IMG/VR virus record: IMGVR_UViG_3300037264_006454
Coordinates: 1 to 42,358 of that record
Direction: 5' to 3' (one strand)
Length of the DNA: 42,358 bases
Origin: a virus
Within the stretch, counting starts at the first letter, position 1, and every line of letters starts with the position of its first letter. Of the stretch, positions 4,501 to 13,478 are shown piece by piece. A program made the position numbers and the translations under genes. The notes below the pieces were generated by a model that was not told the DNA's origin, ran no database searches, and worked only from the letters and a program-made list of their open reading frames with translations.

Positions 4501-5196
4501 TTACTTGTTACTTAGGCCAGCTATCCTGTGGCCTGTTTTTTCGATGAAAAGCTTTCTAAAGAAGCTGTTGTGCACGTACATCTCTCTTATTTTTTTGGTA
4601 GATCTGATCCGCTGAAGCTGACGGTGCCCGGGTGCTTTGTAGTGTTCTTTGGCGTGGCACATCGGGCATAGGACCATTAGGTTTTTTACGGCGTTCCCGT
4701 CCTTGCTTCGTTTTCCGTTTTTATGATGGATAGCCAACATACCAACCTCTTCACACCACCCGCACCCCTCGCACGCGTACCCTTTGAACACAAAGGCTTT
4801 GTACTTGTAGCGAAGGTTCTGCATTGGGAGGTTGGGGTCACTGAGCGTGGTGGACATAGAGGAGTAAAATCCACCGCAAATTTTGGAACAAAACTTATTC
4901 GCGTTCCCGTCTCTCTTTAGAACCACGACATGTTTTCCACATGTGAGGCAGTCAAACCTCTTTCTGTTCTCAATCCAGGATTTACTTTTACATTCCCAGG
5001 AGCAGAACTTTTGATGCCTATACTTTTCGTCAGTGGTTTTTCTACGCGGACTTAGAAATTTCTCTTTGCATCTAGTACAGACCTTGAAGCGTTTTACTAT
5101 GGCTCTGTTCGCGTGTTGACAGGCTCTTGAGCAGAATTTTCTATTCCTGTGTGGCGCGTTGTAAGTTCGGTGACATTGCGGACAGCGAAGTAACAT
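4501..5196 (-). CDS. HNH homing-type endonuclease with four Cys zinc-ribbon pairs
   Basis: A 231-residue protein built from repeated zinc knuckles: C5/C8 with C22/C26, C40/C43 with C65/C69, C83/C86 with C103/C107, and C142/C145 with C177/C180. The last pair frames an HNH nuclease core: IHHKNG at 156-161, Asn172 in KNLMVLC, and His181/His185 in CHAKEH. HNH enzymes cut DNA using one metal in the beta-beta-alpha fold, and free-standing copies in phages usually spread by homing. GGAGGGG five bases before the ATG supports this start. It is inserted between the spike gene and the 208-aa gene, breaking a virion operon, as expected of a mobile homing gene. No intron boundary was detected. Confidence 0.85.
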   Translation of the reverse strand: MLLRCPQCHRTYNAPHRNRKFCSRACQHANRAIVKRFKVCTRCKEKFLSPRRKTTDEKYRHQKFCSWECKSKSWIENRKRFDCLTCGKHVVVLKRDGNANKFCSKICGGFYSSMSTTLSDPNLPMQNLRYKYKAFVFKGYACEGCGWCEEVGMLAIHHKNGKRSKDGNAVKNLMVLCPMCHAKEHYKAPGHRQLQRIRSTKKIREMYVHNSFFRKLFIEKTGHRIAGLSNK

Positions 5197-6323: not shown

Positions 6324-6725
6324 ATGGCCAGTGGAGTAAACAAAGCTATCTTGATCGGTCACCTCGGGAGGGATCCCGAAGTCAGACACACTCAAGAAGG
6401 AACGGCGGTCGCTAATTTTAGCATCGCCACCAACGAGTCGTGGACCGACAAGGCAGGTGCCAAGCAAGAAAAAGTCGAGTGGCACAACATCGTCGCCTGG
6501 GGAAAGCTGGGCGAGATCTGTGGGCAATACCTGAAGAAGGGCTCGCAGGCCTATATCGAAGGCAGACTTCAGACCAGAGAATGGGAGAAGGACGGAGTCA
6601 AGCGGTACACGACGGAAGTCGTCGCCGGTAACATTCAGTTCCTTGGTGGCAAACCTGGTGGTGATCGTCCGCCTCACCCGGCTGATGCGGGCGCGCCTGC
6701 GGGGGCTGAGGACGGACCGCTGTAG
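6324..6725 (+). CDS. ssb: Single-stranded DNA-binding protein
   Basis: A 133-residue SSB. It coats single-stranded DNA during replication, recombination and repair, normally as a tetramer. The OB-fold is complete over residues 1-107: [43 protein letters not shown] and [19 protein letters not shown] are classic SSB blocks. A short Pro/Gly/Ala-rich linker follows. The last residues are AEDGPL rather than the usual DDDIPF tip, so interaction with host SSB partners may be altered. It is preceded by AAGGAG, is divergent from the spike gene, and is followed by a strong terminator, so it can be expressed as a single-gene unit. Confidence 0.97.
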
Positions 6726-6751
6726 TACAAATTCTTTGTAATACAAACTTG

Positions 6752-6782
6752 GCCCCTCTCCTTTACGGGGGAGGGGCTTTTT
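6752..6782 (+). terminator. Intrinsic terminator after ssb
   Basis: GCCCCTCTCC pairs across a short TTTAC loop with GGGGGAGGGGC, followed by TTTTT. It ends the ssb transcript; the next gene starts 15 bases later with its own ribosome site. Confidence 0.85.
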
Positions 6783-6797
6783 AGAGAGGAGGTTGCT

Positions 6798-7736
6798 GTG
6801 AGGTTCAACAAGCTACTTCACTGCGAGATCGTTCTGGACAAGCGGGGTCCTGAGCACATGCGACAGGTCTACAAGAACGCGCTCAGCCAGATATCGTTCA
6901 TTCCGGGGGTTGGGTTTAGGGGCACTCCCGCCATACGCAGCCTGCCAGATCACAACGTGATGGACCAGCTCTTCATACTGAAGAAGTATGTACTGGAGCG
7001 GCCGCCTATATACCATGTTGGGAGAGACTTTTTACAGGCCATGTCTGGTATATCCAACGAGATCCCGGTTGAGCTGTTGCCCAAGCGGTTTTTTGCTTAC
7101 CTATCTTTTGCCGACCACGCTATCCGAGACGAGGAGGACTGGGTGGAGGGGGCATACGTATTTATTGGTAGTGGGTTGGAAGCGGCACTTCGCCCGCAGG
7201 AGCATAACGACTATGTGCTGTGGATACACTATACAACCAAGAGCCAGTCTCTGGTGCGCTTGTGTGTGGAGTTGAAACATGGGCGGATAGATGACCTGGT
7301 GGCTGCCGCGATCAAAGATGATTTTACTCTCGGTGGGGCTATCCCGACTGACCCAAAGGACACCGAAGCCAGACTTCCCGTGTGGCGGGCCGTGATCAAT
7401 TTGGTCATGTATATCAATTCGGTAGATCCGGATTTGGTGCTGACACCTCCAGCCAGCACTCTAAAGCCAGCAGCAAAGAAAGCGGCGAGCGTTCAAAACC
7501 AATGCACGCTACCGATTACGCTGGTGTCGTGGAATTACCACGCTCCGCATTACCACAACGTAGACAAGTCATTTGTAAACACGTTCCAGAGGTGGCAACG
7601 AGTAGGCCCGCAGCTATCTCAGGTGAAATTAATATGGGTCACCGAACACGCAAGGAGATACAAAAATGTACGAGTACGAGGAATTTCCACAGGAGGAAGC
7701 GAAGCTGTTTCTACAGACACTTCAACTGGAGCATGA
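6798..7736 (+). CDS. AcrVA2-like protein (possible anti-CRISPR family)
   Basis: A 312-residue soluble protein with a GTG start and a strong GAGAGGAGG ribosome site. Several features recall the AcrVA2 family: a central run around residues 90-130 (IPVELLPKRFFAYLSF), a helical block near 190-210 (VWRAVINLVMYINSVDPDL), and a C-terminal His/Trp/Arg-rich block (HAPHYHNVD, then FQRWQRVGPQ and KLIWVTEHARRY). AcrVA2 from Moraxella lowers Cas12a levels; most relatives occur in phages and plasmids of bacteria without Cas12a, so the true role may differ. The resemblance is by eye from motif order, not by search. It sits in a plus-strand accessory cluster after ssb. Its last 71 bases overlap the next gene in another frame. 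Confidence 0.5.
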   Translation: MRFNKLLHCEIVLDKRGPEHMRQVYKNALSQISFIPGVGFRGTPAIRSLPDHNVMDQLFILKKYVLERPPIYHVGRDFLQAMSGISNEIPVELLPKRFFAYLSFADHAIRDEEDWVEGAYVFIGSGLEAALRPQEHNDYVLWIHYTTKSQSLVRLCVELKHGRIDDLVAAAIKDDFTLGGAIPTDPKDTEARLPVWRAVINLVMYINSVDPDLVLTPPASTLKPAAKKAASVQNQCTLPITLVSWNYHAPHYHNVDKSFVNTFQRWQRVGPQLSQVKLIWVTEHARRYKNVRVRGISTGGSEAVSTDTSTGA

Positions 7737-8043
7737 GGGTATAGATATCCCAGGCGATGAGCTGCCCTTTCTTTGCCAGGTAGTGCAGACGCGAATCAAG
7801 GCGATGAAGCTACCAATTGAATTTACTAAGCCGGCACTATTTGCTATCTGTTGCTTCACGGATATACCAGGTGGTGCGGTAGTGTTCCTCATCGACGCGC
7901 TTAACCAATTCGAAGGAAAGACCGTCACGGCTGCAATGCTGGGTGACCTGTATCCGTGGGGGTTCTACACAGAGGAATCTCTGTTCAAGTATATCGACGG
8001 AGAAATCAAGACCCGGACCAAGAAGTGGTCTGAGGTCTACTAG
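7666..8043 (+). CDS. Unknown small soluble protein (125 aa)
   Basis: A 125-residue acidic protein, no signal peptide or membrane segment, no family recognised. AAGGAGATACAAAA directly before the ATG is a near-ideal ribosome site and fixes the start even though it lies 71 bases inside the previous gene. The sequence is Glu-rich at the N-terminus, with a hydrophobic core (ALFAICCFTDIPGGAVVFLIDAL near residues 48-70). It is co-transcribed with the AcrVA2-like and 264-aa genes, so it is probably also an early or host-interaction protein. Confidence 0.65.
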   Translation: MYEYEEFPQEEAKLFLQTLQLEHEGIDIPGDELPFLCQVVQTRIKAMKLPIEFTKPALFAICCFTDIPGGAVVFLIDALNQFEGKTVTAAMLGDLYPWGFYTEESLFKYIDGEIKTRTKKWSEVY

Positions 8044-8051
8044 GAGAACAC

Positions 8052-8846
8052 ATGTTTGATAAGTACCAAGTCAAGCTCACCTTTGCCCGCAGCGTACTGG
8101 CAACCAACCCCTGCGATCCCAACGTCATGGACGTGCATATCCAAGACAAGCAGCGAAAGCTCATCTTGGAAAAGGGCGGGATCAACACCCAAATAAACAA
8201 GTACTTGGACGAGATCCAGATATCCAAGGAAAAGGGAGCTGAGGAAACCAGCCGCCTCATTGACCGGCTGGAGACGCTCATTGGGTACACGCTCTCTCCC
8301 GAGGAGCGCCAGGACGCCATCGCCGGCACGCTCACTTCCTTGAAGGAGACCTTCGAGGAAATGGACGTGAAGGGAACGACCATCTTCTTCTGGGACAAGA
8401 AGGCGGATCGGCCGTGTCTGGGCTCGCACATGATCAAGGGCTACTTGAAGGCCGCGGCCGAGGCCATTGGGCGGACGCTGCCGACGAAGCACGGGACCGT
8501 GCTGCACTCGATCTCGTACACCCAGTCACTGATCAACCAGCATGTGAGTTGTGTGGAGGAGTTCATAACCTTCGACAGAGATATCGTGCGCAAAGAGGAC
8601 GGGACCACGGACTACCTGCAGCGGTCGCTACGGGCAATGACAGCCAAGGGCCCGCGGATCTCGCTAGCCAAGTCGGAGCAGGTCGCCGCCGGTGCAAAGC
8701 TGGAGTTCACTCTGCGGGTTATGCAGAACTCCCCCATCACCAAGGAGATTCTCTGCAAGCTGTTTGATTACGGGGAGCTGTCTGGTATCGGCCAGTGGCG
8801 CAACTCTGGGAGGGGTGCCTTCTCCTACGAACTGATGAAAGCCTAA
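8052..8846 (+). CDS. Unknown protein with a RAMP-like glycine loop (264 aa)
   Basis: A 264-residue soluble protein preceded by TAGGAGAACAC. Residues 1-110 are beta/alpha with a charged helix (KEKGAEETSRLIDRLETL). Around 110-135 there is a strand-helix block (TTIFFWDKKAD, GSHMIKGYLKAAAEAI). The C-terminus has KLFDYGELSGIGQWRNSGRG, resembling the glycine-rich loop that closes the ferredoxin-like fold of RAMP/Cas7-type RNA-binding proteins. This similarity is a motif impression only. It ends the accessory cluster just before a terminator hairpin, next to an AcrVA2-like gene, which makes a defence-related role worth testing. Confidence 0.6.
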   Translation: MFDKYQVKLTFARSVLATNPCDPNVMDVHIQDKQRKLILEKGGINTQINKYLDEIQISKEKGAEETSRLIDRLETLIGYTLSPEERQDAIAGTLTSLKETFEEMDVKGTTIFFWDKKADRPCLGSHMIKGYLKAAAEAIGRTLPTKHGTVLHSISYTQSLINQHVSCVEEFITFDRDIVRKEDGTTDYLQRSLRAMTAKGPRISLAKSEQVAAGAKLEFTLRVMQNSPITKEILCKLFDYGELSGIGQWRNSGRGAFSYELMKA

Positions 8847-8852
8847 TCTTGC

Positions 8853-8890
8853 AAAGCCCCGGTAGCTGGATATGCTATCGGGGCTTTCTT
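8853..8890 (+). terminator. Intrinsic terminator after the 264-aa gene
   Basis: AAAGCCCCGGTAGC pairs with GCTATCGGGGCTTT across a seven-base loop and is followed by CTT. The peptidase gene begins 15 bases further on. Confidence 0.85.
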
Positions 8891-8904
8891 ACAAAGGAGA
8901 CCCC

Positions 8905-10203
8905 ATGAAACTGATTCTACTTGGTTTGCTGCTATTGGTAGGGTGTAGCAAGCCTTCACCCTACGACATCAATGATCCCATTTTTTCTTACGCCAAGCAG
9001 GAGCGAGATGAGCTGGTGGCTGCCTGCGGTCCAGGCATCATCGCGGGTCAGAAGGGCGAGAACCACTGCACCTACCAGGTGGCAATGGACTCGTTGTTCT
9101 TTCAGCACCCTTCTCAGAAAACCGGACTCCTGCACGATCCGGATTGGGCCTACAGAGATGGCGTCGAGTGGGTTACGGCGTCGACCATGATTCCAGCACC
9201 CAACGTCTTCGATCTCAGAGAGCTGATGAAGAACGGGCAGCCCGAGATAAAGCAGCAGCAGTGCGGCGACTGTTGGGCCTGGGCGTCCCACCATGGCTAT
9301 GAGATATCACAGGCCGTACACGATGGGCTCGTCGTGGACAACTCCGTGCAGTCAGTATTGTCCTGCTCCAAGCAGGGTAGCTGCGGCGGCGGGTATATGT
9401 CGGCGGTTGATTTTATCCGTAATGGGCTGCCGCTCGAGGCGGGCTTTGCCTATCTCAATGGCACCACAGGCAAGTGCAAGTTCAATACGGCCGAGCTGAC
9501 CGCTGGCTGGGAACCCAAGATGGTAGGGACCCCCTACATTGGCTCGTCTCTGAACTACTCACGCTTCCTCAAAACGGATGACGGTTTTGCGGCAAAGCCC
9601 ACCGTTCAGGAGATGCGAGATATCTCCTTTCAGTGGAAGGCTCCGCTGGTCGTTACTGTGTCGGCTTACTCGGCCAGCGGTGACGGCATCGTTAACAGCT
9701 GCTCTGCGATCAACTCCGGCGGCAATCACATGGTCACCATCGTAGGATGGGATGACGAGAGCAGCCAGCTCAACGCGCACGTTTGGAATAGCTGGGGCAA
9801 GGCACACGGCAAAGACGGTGTCAGCAGAATCAAATGGGAGTGCGGGGCCGGCAAGCTGAACCGCGGGCTGGGCGTTTCTGCCAAAGTCGTGCAGTACAGA
9901 ACCGAGTGCAAAGTGCCGGTAGCGGCTATGGGCCCGGCCAAGCGTATGGTCATGCAAGGACTGTCGGTGAAGCTGGGCAAGAAGATGGCCGGCCAAACGT
10001 GCAAGTGGACGCCCTCGGAGGGGCTTTCTGACCCGAATGCTTGTGAGACGTTCGCCACGCCGTCGGTCAATACCGAGTACCACATGGTCGCAAGTAACGG
10101 TTGCGGTACGGCATCGACGATCACTCTCGTAGAGGTCTGGAGCCCAGGTGGTGGCCGGATCAACGACGAGGTCAAGACTCCGCATGGGACGGTGACGTTG
10201 TAG
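8905..10203 (+). CDS. Papain-like (C1A) cysteine peptidase, lipoprotein with PKD-like tail
   Basis: 432 residues from the ATG at 8905, with AAAGGAGA just upstream. Residues 1-14 are a lipoprotein signal ending LLVGC (Cys14), so the mature protein should be lipid-anchored, probably on the outer membrane since Ser follows the Cys. The catalytic set of papain is intact: Gln117 (oxyanion), Cys123 in CGDCWAWA, His275 in GGNHMVTIVGW and Asn295 in VWNSWG. Residues 154-163 (CSKQGSCGGG) match the conserved Cys/Gly stretch after the active site. Residues about 345-420 (KWTPSEGLSDP, NTEYHMVASNGCGTAS) look like a PKD/Ig-type beta-sandwich. Surface-exposed peptidases of this class are rare in phages; possible roles are superinfection exclusion or lysogenic conversion. 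A longer start at 8872 lies in the terminator and is rejected. Confidence 0.9.
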   Translation: MKLILLGLLLLVGCSKPSPYDINDPIFSYAKQERDELVAACGPGIIAGQKGENHCTYQVAMDSLFFQHPSQKTGLLHDPDWAYRDGVEWVTASTMIPAPNVFDLRELMKNGQPEIKQQQCGDCWAWASHHGYEISQAVHDGLVVDNSVQSVLSCSKQGSCGGGYMSAVDFIRNGLPLEAGFAYLNGTTGKCKFNTAELTAGWEPKMVGTPYIGSSLNYSRFLKTDDGFAAKPTVQEMRDISFQWKAPLVVTVSAYSASGDGIVNSCSAINSGGNHMVTIVGWDDESSQLNAHVWNSWGKAHGKDGVSRIKWECGAGKLNRGLGVSAKVVQYRTECKVPVAAMGPAKRMVMQGLSVKLGKKMAGQTCKWTPSEGLSDPNACETFATPSVNTEYHMVASNGCGTASTITLVEVWSPGGGRINDEVKTPHGTVTL

Positions 10204-11048
10204 TGGTAGGGCACGGTAATGAACGGCTCGGTAGTGTGGCGGCAAGGCCACGTTTCGTGAAGTATCGCCACGTGTTGGCATGGCGGCGTTCAGCAAGGCC
10301 TCGCACGGGTATAGTGGCGCGCTGTCTAAGCAAAGGTGAGGTCCCGTAACTTTAGGTGTAGTGGAGTCCGGTAACGGTTCAGTTCGGTGGCGTCCCTCTT
10401 CGTATTGTTCCGGTAATGTTGAGTCAGGTTTGGTGGTGTTGTGTGGCGGTGTGGAACGGTATGGTTCGGTGGCGGTCTAGCACGGTCCCGTCGTGTAACG
10501 GCATCGCTATGCCCCGTAGGGCAACGTGCGATGGCATAGTACTGCCTAGTCCAGTTGAGGCAATGCGTAGTTGGGTTAAGTGTGGGTCTGGCGTGGCGCC
10601 GCACTATTGGGCTCTGCACTGGTGAAGTCACGTTGAGTACAGTCGTGTGGTGGTACGGTATCGACTGCCTGGCGTCGTGAGGGTTTAGTATTGTCGAGTC
10701 TAGTGACGGGTCTGGCGCAGTCAAGTTAGGCTTAGTGGCGGTGTTGCAGAGCCTCGAAGAGCAAAGTGGCGGCTTCGTGAAGCACGGTCGAGTACCGCTG
10801 GGCGGTGGTATGGTCCGGTTGTGTAAGGCTTTGCTACGGCGAAGTATCGCCTGGCCAGGCAATGTGGGGCCATGGTTCTGCGTGGTGCAATACAGTCTTG
10901 TGAAGTGAGGGTGAGGCAGGGTGAGGAAACGTGCTGTGATGGTTTGGCATGGCACAGTACTGTTAAGTGAGGGTGAAGTTCGGCAAAGCGTGGTTAAGCG
11001 GCGCTGTGTGCCGGTTTTGTGGTGCCGGGCTGAGTAGCGCTCCGTGAC
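10204..11048 (+). repeat. Degenerate pentamer array (Y-N-N-N-G), about 845 bases, no gene
   Basis: From the peptidase stop to the terminator at 11051 the plus strand parses almost without break into five-base words. Each word begins with T or C and ends with G, with occasional six- or seven-base words ending GG. A clear run is TGTGG AACGG TATGG TTCGG at 10450-10469. The three middle bases vary freely, so this is not a simple satellite. The plus strand is G- and T-rich; the minus strand therefore has C about every five bases. Plus-strand frames are full of TAG stops. The array lies exactly where the rightward accessory operon and the leftward helicase operon converge, and a plus-strand terminator closes it. 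It may be a long non-coding RNA, a Rho-type or roadblock termination zone for leftward transcripts, or a phased protein-binding site. I know no described element of this kind. Confidence 0.75.
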
Positions 11049-11050
11049 CA

Positions 11051-11082
11051 AGAGGCCCTCCCACCCGGGTCGGCCTCTTTTT
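11051..11082 (+). terminator. Intrinsic terminator closing the pentamer array
   Basis: AGAGGCC pairs with GGCCTCT around a GC-rich interior that contains CACCCGGGT, and a run of five T follows. A rightward transcript through the pentamer array would end here. Confidence 0.75.
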
Positions 11083-11616: not shown

Positions 11617-13311
11617 CTACATTTTAGCAAACTTGCGGCCTGCCAGGTAGAGGGGGATGCCAACGGCTGCAGCCGCGCCAAGCATTTTGAGCTTGCTCAT
11701 GGGCTGCGGCGCTGGCGCAACAGACTGGGCACGCTCAGCTGTCGGGGCCTTTGGCTGGAAGAACGACTGATCGTACTTACCAGGCTTGCCTTTGAGCAGG
11801 CCGCGGAACTGGGAGTTGAGCTCGTTCTTACGTTCAGCCACACCGTATATCCATTTATCGATGCCCTGGTCCTCGTGACCGAATAGTTTCTTTGCGCTCG
11901 ACAGCAACCCAGGCTTGTCTGGTGTAGACACGTAGCGTTTTACCTTCACATCCTTCACAGTGGAACCAAGACGTCGCACTCTGGCCTCGGCTTGCTCGAT
12001 CCGCTCGGGGTTGTAGTGTCCTTCGGCGAGTTGCATGAGGTTGACGTCTTTGAGGTCGAGGCCCTCTGCTCCGGCTCCGGAGATGAGGAGCACTCTTTTT
12101 TTACTACTCTGGAAATCCTTGAGGGCTTCTTCTCGCTCTTTGGAGGAGCTGCCTTCATTTCCTGTTCCATAGAATTTGGAGTAGTCCATTCCCTTAGCTT
12201 TGAGGCCCTTTTCAATGGCAGATAGCTGACCGGTGAGCAGGTTGCCAAAGATGACGGTCTTGTGTTTTGGGTTGGCGCCCAGGTGCTTCTCAGCGTCTTC
12301 GACCATGGCCTTTACCTTGGGAGAGTACTCTCCCGGGTTCTGCTTCTGGAGCTGCCTCGAGAGAACGCCTGGGTCAGTCGAGATCTGGCGTGCTTGCATG
12401 AGCTTACCAAAGGCGGCGCTGGCCTCCCTCTGCCCCACGGGTATGTTGTAGCGGATCTTCCACCGCGTAATCGGGTCAACGGAGCTCATGGTAAAATCGT
12501 AGATGCGGCGCTGCTCCGTGCTCATAGGAGTTTCCACGGTCTCCACCGTCTTCTTGGGCAAGGAGCTCGCGATATCTTCGTGGGAGAGGAAATCAACTTT
12601 GTTGCGCAGGTACTTGCCCAGCTGATCCGAGTGCTTCAGAGCCTTGGGGGACTCCTTGCCAAAGAAACTCTTGGTGGACTTGCCAACAAAGCGCTTCGTA
12701 AACTCTTCCTTGGTGCCCAGCTCGTGGCCGTGTTCACCGTAAGTCACATCCAGCAGGGGCACGACATCGCCAGGCTCGTTATTGACGATGGAGCCGGTGA
12801 GCGTGATCGCGCCCTTGACCTTGCCACGCAGCCTCTTCAGCTGCTTGTAGGTCGCGCCCTCTGTCCCGCGGGCCCGGTGGATCTCGTCCATGATCAGCGT
12901 ATCGGCGCCAGTGTCGGCGAGAATCTTGTCCCCGTGGGAGCGGAAGAGATCGTAGCTGATGATGTTGTAGTCGGCGTCAGACTTGTCGCCGATTTGCTTT
13001 GAGTCCTTCTCACCTTTGGGGCCGTAGGTACTGTACGACGAGTCAGTAAACTGTTTGATGCCCTTCTCGGTGAAGTTGCTACGAAGGGCGGCTGGCACGA
13101 CCACGATCGCGCGGTTAGCTTTGCCCTTGGCTTTTAAGTTCTCGAAGGCGGCGATTCCGGAGAGGGTCTTACCGGATCCGGTCGCATGGGCGACGAGCAT
13201 GCTGCCGTCGTTCTCCTCAGTGCGTTTGACCACGCGCTTTTGATGGTCAGTCAGCTTTACGCTGGACTTCAGGCGGGCCCGCTTCTCAAAGGCTGCCAGG
13301 AAGGTGGTCAC
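11617..13311 (-). CDS. SNF2-like superfamily 2 helicase with tag and C-terminal hydrophobic segment
   Basis: 564 residues from the GTG at 13311 (GTGTGA overlap with the 56-aa gene). It starts with the shared tag, here TTFLAAFEKRARLK. Helicase motifs follow: Q-like LTDHQKRVV at 20-28, Walker A GSGKT at 45-49, DEIH at 142-145, motif III LTGS at 171-174, motif V GAEGLDLKDVNL, and motif VI ERIEQAEARVRRLGS. This is the SNF2 type of dsDNA translocase rather than a replicative helicase. A Pro/Ala linker precedes a C-terminal stretch (MLGAAAAVGIPLYLAG) that looks membrane-seeking, followed by RKFAKM. A longer start at 13371 lies inside the upstream gene in another frame and is rejected. A role in injected DNA handling or protection, like the packaged DarB helicase of P1, is an inference. 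Confidence 0.88.
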   Translation of the reverse strand: MTTFLAAFEKRARLKSSVKLTDHQKRVVKRTEENDGSMLVAHATGSGKTLSGIAAFENLKAKGKANRAIVVVPAALRSNFTEKGIKQFTDSSYSTYGPKGEKDSKQIGDKSDADYNIISYDLFRSHGDKILADTGADTLIMDEIHRARGTEGATYKQLKRLRGKVKGAITLTGSIVNNEPGDVVPLLDVTYGEHGHELGTKEEFTKRFVGKSTKSFFGKESPKALKHSDQLGKYLRNKVDFLSHEDIASSLPKKTVETVETPMSTEQRRIYDFTMSSVDPITRWKIRYNIPVGQREASAAFGKLMQARQISTDPGVLSRQLQKQNPGEYSPKVKAMVEDAEKHLGANPKHKTVIFGNLLTGQLSAIEKGLKAKGMDYSKFYGTGNEGSSSKEREEALKDFQSSKKRVLLISGAGAEGLDLKDVNLMQLAEGHYNPERIEQAEARVRRLGSTVKDVKVKRYVSTPDKPGLLSSAKKLFGHEDQGIDKWIYGVAERKNELNSQFRGLLKGKPGKYDQSFFQPKAPTAERAQSVAPAPQPMSKLKMLGAAAAVGIPLYLAGRKFAKM

Positions 13312-13478
13312 ACGCTTTCCCCGCAGAGCTTCACACGGCCGTCGTGAGCGTCGTAGGCCACGTCTCCGCAAGCCTCCTCAACCTGGACGCGGCCGTCTTC
13401 AGCAACGACGTCCACTTGGGCGTTGCCGTAGCTGGCACGGATCTCCTGAAGGCGCGTGATGAGGGTGTCAATGTCCAT
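13308..13478 (-). CDS. Small acidic protein (56 aa)
   Basis: A 56-residue acidic protein, MDIDTLITRLQEIRASYG at the start and VKLCGESV at the end, with two Cys. Its ATG overlaps the end of the DUF5661-type gene and its stop overlaps the helicase GTG (GTGTGA), so it is translationally coupled on both sides. It does not carry the tag. The middle (NAQVDVVAEDGRVQVEEA) reads like the small beta-strand proteins often found in phages. Function unknown. Confidence 0.7.
   Translation of the reverse strand: MDIDTLITRLQEIRASYGNAQVDVVAEDGRVQVEEACGDVAYDAHDGRVKLCGESV

Follow-up and report, generated by a model that had tools for sequence, protein, structure and literature searches.

Organization of the Locus

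The window analysed here is the whole of a 42,358-nucleotide stretch of viral DNA (IMG/VR record IMGVR_UViG_3300037264_006454), and on its plus strand are found, in order, an ssb gene (6324-6725), a gene encoding a protein of 312 amino acids (6798-7736), a 125-amino acid open reading frame (ORF; 7666-8043), vipr (8052-8846), a gene encoding a papain-like protease (8872-10203), an array of five-base words (10204-11048), and a predicted terminator (11050-11082). The phage context of the locus is apparent from the virus record and from nearby genes that encode a portal, an SNF2-type helicase, and an HNH protein; the HNH endonuclease gene (4501-5196) is located near the VIPR segment. The 125-amino acid ORF directly upstream of vipr overlaps that of the 312-amino acid protein, and its start may be later. 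Since a relative of the 312-amino acid protein with 33% identity is encoded at another vipr locus (L246), this gene is possibly a member of the vipr operon or an accessory to it.

The product of the gene between vipr and the array belongs to the papain family (C1) of cysteine proteases (Pfam PF00112, E 6.7e-19), and its N-terminus is lipoprotein-like (LLLVGC). It was considered as a VIPR component and rejected, as no relative was located near the vipr genes searched; tblastn returned none among the array loci or vipr loci searched, and a peptide-pattern search of IMG/VR returned none. Judged by the closest relatives, in which the array lies beside vipr, the protease gene appears to have come between the two in the window. 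No cas-like family was identified when nearby ORFs were compared to Pfam and PHROGs, no vap accessory was recognized in the window, and no neighbour family was conserved across the array loci.

Downstream of the array, an SNF2/ResIII-type helicase (11617-13371) shares 72% identity over 554 amino acids with the helicase of a 152-kb viral contig (L002), and for this reason the 42-kb window probably represents part of a larger phage genome. In L002 (8014-8193), ssb and a 110-amino acid gene face each other across approximately 180 bp, with neither vipr nor an array. Because it is absent from between these two genes in L002, the segment 6798-11082, comprising the 312-amino acid gene, vipr, the protease gene, and the array, has the appearance of an insertion, and by this comparison it looks like a mobile cassette.

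Structure of the Array

A first-pass annotation of this DNA, made from the letters alone, had described 10204-11048 as a plus-strand array of words of the form YNNNG, with a G at every fifth base and selection on spacing rather than sequence, and this description was borne out. The autocorrelation of G within the array was observed to have maxima at lags of 5, 10, 15/16, 21, 26, 31, and 36, and Fourier analysis of the same base gave maxima at 5.19 and 2.58 with a power of 36-38, whereas with order-1 Markov shuffles the maximum averaged 7.7 and never exceeded 17.7. Across the whole 42 kb, the eight strongest 400-base intervals for the periodic-G signal were all inside 10101-10801, and a scan of this kind placed the end of the signal at approximately 11000-11050. 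An unsupervised hidden Markov model (HMM) with seven states and no motif fixed in advance recovered 162 full words, with a log-likelihood of -917 vs. -1129 for independent bases. G occupies the first base in 158 of the 162, and the second is likewise a pyrimidine in 158 (T in 101, C in 57), while the remaining three bases are near-uniform in composition. The words are written hereafter as GYNNN, a lattice identical to that of YNNNG with the phase shifted by one base; GY is fixed and the other bases vary. With a gapped GY scanner the array scored 102.7, and no score of 14 or above was obtained with order-2 Markov shuffles of 60 loci.

The lengths of the words were resolved as 135 five-mers, 25 six-mers, two seven-mers, and one four-mer. 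Six- and seven-base words had been recorded earlier as occasional interruptions and they do exist, but they are not random breaks; the six-base words come once per 5-8 words, with G as the extra base in 24 of the 25, and so divide the array into approximately 28 units of 26, 31, 36, or 41 nt. The mean spacing of 5.17 is accounted for by this combination of pentamers with one extra-G word per 5-8 words. As the last word of units, GTGGCg is frequent in this array. In 30% of the words GY is preceded by G, compared to 10-48% in most other diverse arrays.

Hidden coding was considered and rejected: the NNN triplets of the window array contain stop words about as often as expected by chance, and there is therefore no hidden ORF in the array, consistent with the earlier view that its periodicity is not codon structure. 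That view had also held the array to be neither a simple satellite nor CRISPR repeats, and indeed no repeat-spacer organization is present. Folding of the array RNA was no better than that of shuffles (z = +0.74 for the plus strand and -1.33 for the minus strand), and no Rfam family was matched at gathering thresholds anywhere in the window. Searches with blastn against phages returned no direct DNA homologues of the array, as expected given the hypervariability of its words. The array is closed on the plus strand, as had been noted, by a putative intrinsic terminator (11050-11082) predicted from an 8-bp stem at 11050-11079 (AAGAGGCC...GGCCTCTT) and the T-run that follows it. A terminator-like site was called at 11054-11071, in a region where the count of such sites was not above that in shuffles.

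Linkage of Arrays to a RAMP Gene

Related arrays were sought in IMG/VR and GTDB genomes by a pattern scan, its query being 13 words with one extra G, and loci were thus picked by DNA alone. Among the matches listed, the gapped scanner identified at least 89 long arrays in at least 84 loci, with mean spacings of 5.10-5.21 and a longest array of 532 words; the periodicity that the first-pass annotation had suggested be sought in other phage genomes is hence found in them. Matches with a period near 5.00 and low-complexity words, among them several Streptomyces and Actinoplanes loci, were discarded as ordinary pentamer satellites. A gene of approximately 200-260 codons is located directly upstream, and on the same strand, of most long arrays. 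Its products constitute the Vipr family, which is encoded at 61 of the 84 long-array loci vs. 11 of the 157 loci that lack a long array; 53 of the 89 arrays are preceded by a vipr gene on their own strand, most often at a distance of less than 40 bp (all counts among the matches listed). The linkage was also observed in reverse. A protein search of IMG/VR identified 428 Vipr relatives, and in 41 of 79 newly fetched loci, 76 of them with the full 300 nt downstream, a GY array was present within 300 nt downstream of vipr, while a reversed-sequence control gave no arrays. All six closest relatives of the window Vipr (L242-L247) have a downstream GY array, at -5 to 37 bp from vipr.

The vipr gene of the window (8052-8846) encodes a 264-amino acid protein, recognized as a Cas7-like RAMP by homologue alignment, AF2 modelling, Foldseek/VIA, and a profile match. 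Alignment with 29 array-linked homologues revealed a near-invariant G-loop, G-x-G-Q-W-R-N..G; the C-terminal motif GLGQWRN(G/S/A)GxGRF is conserved in the array-linked family, and the window protein has GIGQWRNSGRGAF close to its C-terminus. The AF2 model (pLDDT 86, pTM 0.82) found its best PDB matches by Foldseek/VIA in Cas7 (8yhd, Z 12.8) and Csm3 (6xn3, Z 12.7), and the protein is accordingly modelled as a single-domain RAMP with an RRM core and the G-loop. In profile comparisons, the family matched Csm4 (E 1e-4) and type VII Cas7 (E 2e-4) and, weakly, the entry 36pp_D, 'SUSP1 Vipr protein' (E 0.042, 16.5 bits, over 108 profile positions that include the G-loop). The family has no match in Pfam or NCBIfam and one that is weak at best in PHROGs, and PADLOC returned weak RAMP-like matches for the vipr homologues and nothing beyond. 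It is by the Cas7/Csm3-like RAMP fold, coupled with the weak profile match to the SUSP1 protein, that the locus is assigned to the VIPR systems.

Several arrays depart from this arrangement. The longest seen, of approximately 530 words (2.7 kb), occur on a sheep-gut Clostridia MAG contig (L184, 5291-7996) and on a viral contig (L089, 3696-6452), and there is no vipr inside the L184 piece. Long GY arrays with no recognizable vipr in the DNA examined were also found in L106, L109, L078, L011, and L062/L043, to be explained either by a second array in one phage or by a divergent vipr; the genes upstream of some, judged by eye, encode an SbcC-like ATPase (L106) or deaminase-like proteins (L078 and L109). 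One phage (L104) carries three separate GY arrays (6542-6943, 7370-7697, and 10625-10994), and the extra base of its six-base words is mostly T, not G.

Free Bases and Proposed Guide Modules

The free bases were analysed in a set of 61 diverse arrays comprising 8,728 words, with later tests made on slightly different sets. Within units, the dinucleotide formed by N5 and N3 of the next word was found to be depleted in TpA (z -6.8) and enriched in AA/TT (z 4.1), an effect that persisted after position-preserving shuffles and removal of the boundary words, and that was absent across the six-base words. The free bases thus look like copied DNA, in which N5 and the next N3 act as neighbours despite the intervening GY. 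By composite likelihood over all cross-word pairs, a period of three target bases to the word was favoured (z 8.4) and ranked first in 95% of bootstraps, a preference that vanished once the N5-N3' pair was omitted. These statistics lend moderate support to the notion that one word represents three adjacent target bases and that a unit is a guide. This figure is in line with type II VIPR systems, in which each repeat advances three nucleotides along the target, and the position that is fixed as G in type II may also be read here.

The boundaries between units carry a signal of their own. The six-base word and the word following it are A-rich (e.g., GYAAAG|GYAAA), with AAA enriched 3.7-fold, and these boundary words look like a handle; the statistics of about 60 arrays suggest that the extra-G words delimit guide modules. 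An apparent enrichment of stops across unit ends was traced to the A-rich boundary words and dismissed as an artefact. Depletion of stop triplets was seen in one reverse frame and in N5|N3N4, and in neither of the other two cross-word frames; as the reverse-frame effect is mostly TpA depletion, a codon phase in the free bases was rejected and none is claimed.

Comparison of related phages (L069/L096 and L043/L062) revealed that whole units are kept in order or lost as blocks, and in L097 and L209 whole units are duplicated with exact ends. Among substitutions between related arrays, G1 was changed in 4% and changes at Y2 were mostly C/T exchanges, while N3 and N5 of the last word were largely free of substitution. 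Units are, from these alignments, evolutionary modules that are shared, gained, or lost whole and exchanged between related phages. It is the free bases of the array that would carry the message, a point missed by the first-pass annotation.

Searches for targets covered three collections. When 194 decoded guides were compared by blastn to 50,697 phage records, chance-level matches only were returned, and IMG/VR contained no exact counterpart of the two decoded guides searched there. Within 2 Mb of fetched loci, exact spaced matches to guides, compared under 30 readout/skip rules after low-complexity arrays had been discounted, were for no rule clearly above those of shuffled words.

Interpretation as a Probable VIPR Guide Array

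Viral Interference Programmable Repeat (VIPR) systems were reported in April 2026 (PMC13142463; doi 10.64898/2026.04.26.720920). As described there, Vipr is a phage-encoded RAMP bound to vrRNAs, which are composed of tandem YNNGG repeats and encoded beside vipr; the NN bases of the vrRNA pair with double-stranded DNA, one target base being skipped per repeat, and the complex represses transcription, with natural guides directed to satellites and prophages (PMC13142463). That report distinguishes seven types, with a consensus of GGY/NN 'or a related consensus' and layouts that include staggered overlapping vrRNAs, and proposes VIPR as an ancestor of CRISPR (PMC13142463).

The segment 10204-11048 is very probably the guide-RNA array of a phage VIPR system. 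The array, its punctuation, and its linkage to vipr are observed, as is its modular evolution; the RAMP fold of the protein is modelled, and the function is assigned by analogy. The rightward operon would produce both Vipr (8052-8846) and a noncoding RNA (10204-11048) ending at the terminator (11050-11082). By analogy with SUSP1, Vipr subunits would be arrayed along this RNA, one per 5-nt word, each gripping the conserved G-Y and exposing the free bases for pairing with target DNA, and the resulting protein-RNA filament would stop a competitor, be it a phage, a satellite, or a prophage, from being transcribed. Approximately 28 guide modules of 5-8 words each, set apart by a word with one extra G, would be provided by the array. 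We infer RNA binding, DNA targeting, repression, and the choice of rival phages as targets solely from the published description of VIPR (PMC13142463).

Three functions had been put forward in the first-pass annotation, namely a long structured or scaffolding RNA, a Rho-type or collision zone, and a protein-binding platform on DNA. The proposal of a structured RNA is at odds with the folding results, and that of a scaffolding RNA comes nearest of the three, because the array is downstream of a RAMP gene whose product very probably assembles on the transcript. A rival reading would have the RNA form a filament that packages, scaffolds, or sequesters the RAMP protein, either as a sponge or as a structural RNP, with free bases devoid of target information. 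The GY lattice and the linkage to a RAMP gene would appear identical in such a case, and the searches found no target; yet dinucleotide order is kept across GY within units and not across unit ends, modules are retained, swapped, and duplicated whole, and the homologous SUSP1 vrRNAs are programmable guides (PMC13142463), such that we consider a purely structural filament improbable.

The two remaining proposals fare worse. A protein filament on double-stranded DNA, phased by half-helical turns, gains some appeal from the closeness of the mean spacing to half of 10.4 bp, but that mean is a product of pentamers and the extra G at unit boundaries: the spacing is exactly 5, with the extra base at conserved unit ends, and not a rounded non-integer or uniform lattice. 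As the array is also strand-asymmetric and both downstream of and co-oriented with the RAMP gene, there is very little likelihood of a DNA platform. A zone of Rho-dependent termination, or of collision, for leftward transcripts would be served by a minus strand rich in C and poor in G, as is the case here. Rho sites prefer YC dimers, however, and the leftward strand has R ahead of each phased C. Arrays follow vipr on its sense strand in dozens of phages with many differing downstream contexts, array loci without any leftward gene downstream are common, and in L002 the same two facing genes meet without any such zone between them; a role in termination is thus hardly credible. We therefore retain the guide-RNA array as the best explanation.

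Relationship to Known Systems

The type II VIPR systems, from Escherichia phage SUSP1 and a Pseudomonas fulva prophage (PMC13142463), are similar to the window locus in having a small, phage-encoded RAMP with a G-loop, an adjacent noncoding RNA of tandem 5-nt repeats in which a conserved G-pyrimidine step alternates with hypervariable bases, and an array beside vipr with multiple guides per locus. They differ in consensus, GGY/NN (YNNGG) as opposed to GY/NNN in the window, and in layout: type II is described as separate RNAs of approximately 100 nt, each with 9-16 repeats and an invariant structured 3' tail, whereas the window has approximately 162 words in one continuous, punctuated array, which runs on to the terminator with no structured tail between its words. 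Further differences are the lack of a recognized vap in the window and the weak similarity of its Vipr family to SUSP1 Vipr (E 0.042). A noncoding pentamer RNA next to vipr is thus present in the window as a 'related consensus' only, and the locus fits VIPR but departs in these respects from type II as detailed in that report.

It is possible, if somewhat the less probable outcome, that the locus belongs to a separate subtype of VIPR whose own code, GY/NNN, has each of the three free bases read against a contiguous target, with the G-Y looped out after every third base of the guide. Its array, in addition, would be a long concatenation of 5-8-word guides punctuated by extra-G words (with the A-rich handle GYAAAG|GYA in many phages, and often GTGGCg in the window), each guide being a module that can be gained, lost, or duplicated, amounting to a CRISPR-like multi-guide memory without CRISPR repeats.

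TIGR-Tas (PMC12045711) is likewise a compact, phage-encoded, RNA-guided DNA-targeting system with a guide array; by its description, it differs in that Tas was found through a Cas9 guide-RNA interaction domain and not a RAMP fold, and in having tandem interspaced guides rather than pentamers (PMC12045711). The RAMPs of class 1 CRISPR-Cas systems (Cas7/Csm3 and type VII Cas7) share the protein fold and a periodic reading of the guide with one subunit per word, the period being 6 nt in CRISPR and the reading in the window being assumed by analogy. The window differs from these systems in lacking a CRISPR array and, across the flanking DNA scanned, any cas genes; VIPR, moreover, comprises a single protein and a guide broken at every word by G-Y. 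We know of no other system that fits the window locus.

The window locus, together with the 428 relatives of its Vipr, shows that arrays of the GY/NNN form, very long and modular, are common in uncultivated phages. It is owing to the length of these arrays, 28 units here and up to 532 words elsewhere among the matches listed, that the code can be read statistically, which the short type II loci do not permit, and the same length raises questions of guide acquisition. If each unit is an independent guide, the arrays would record the rivals met by each phage.
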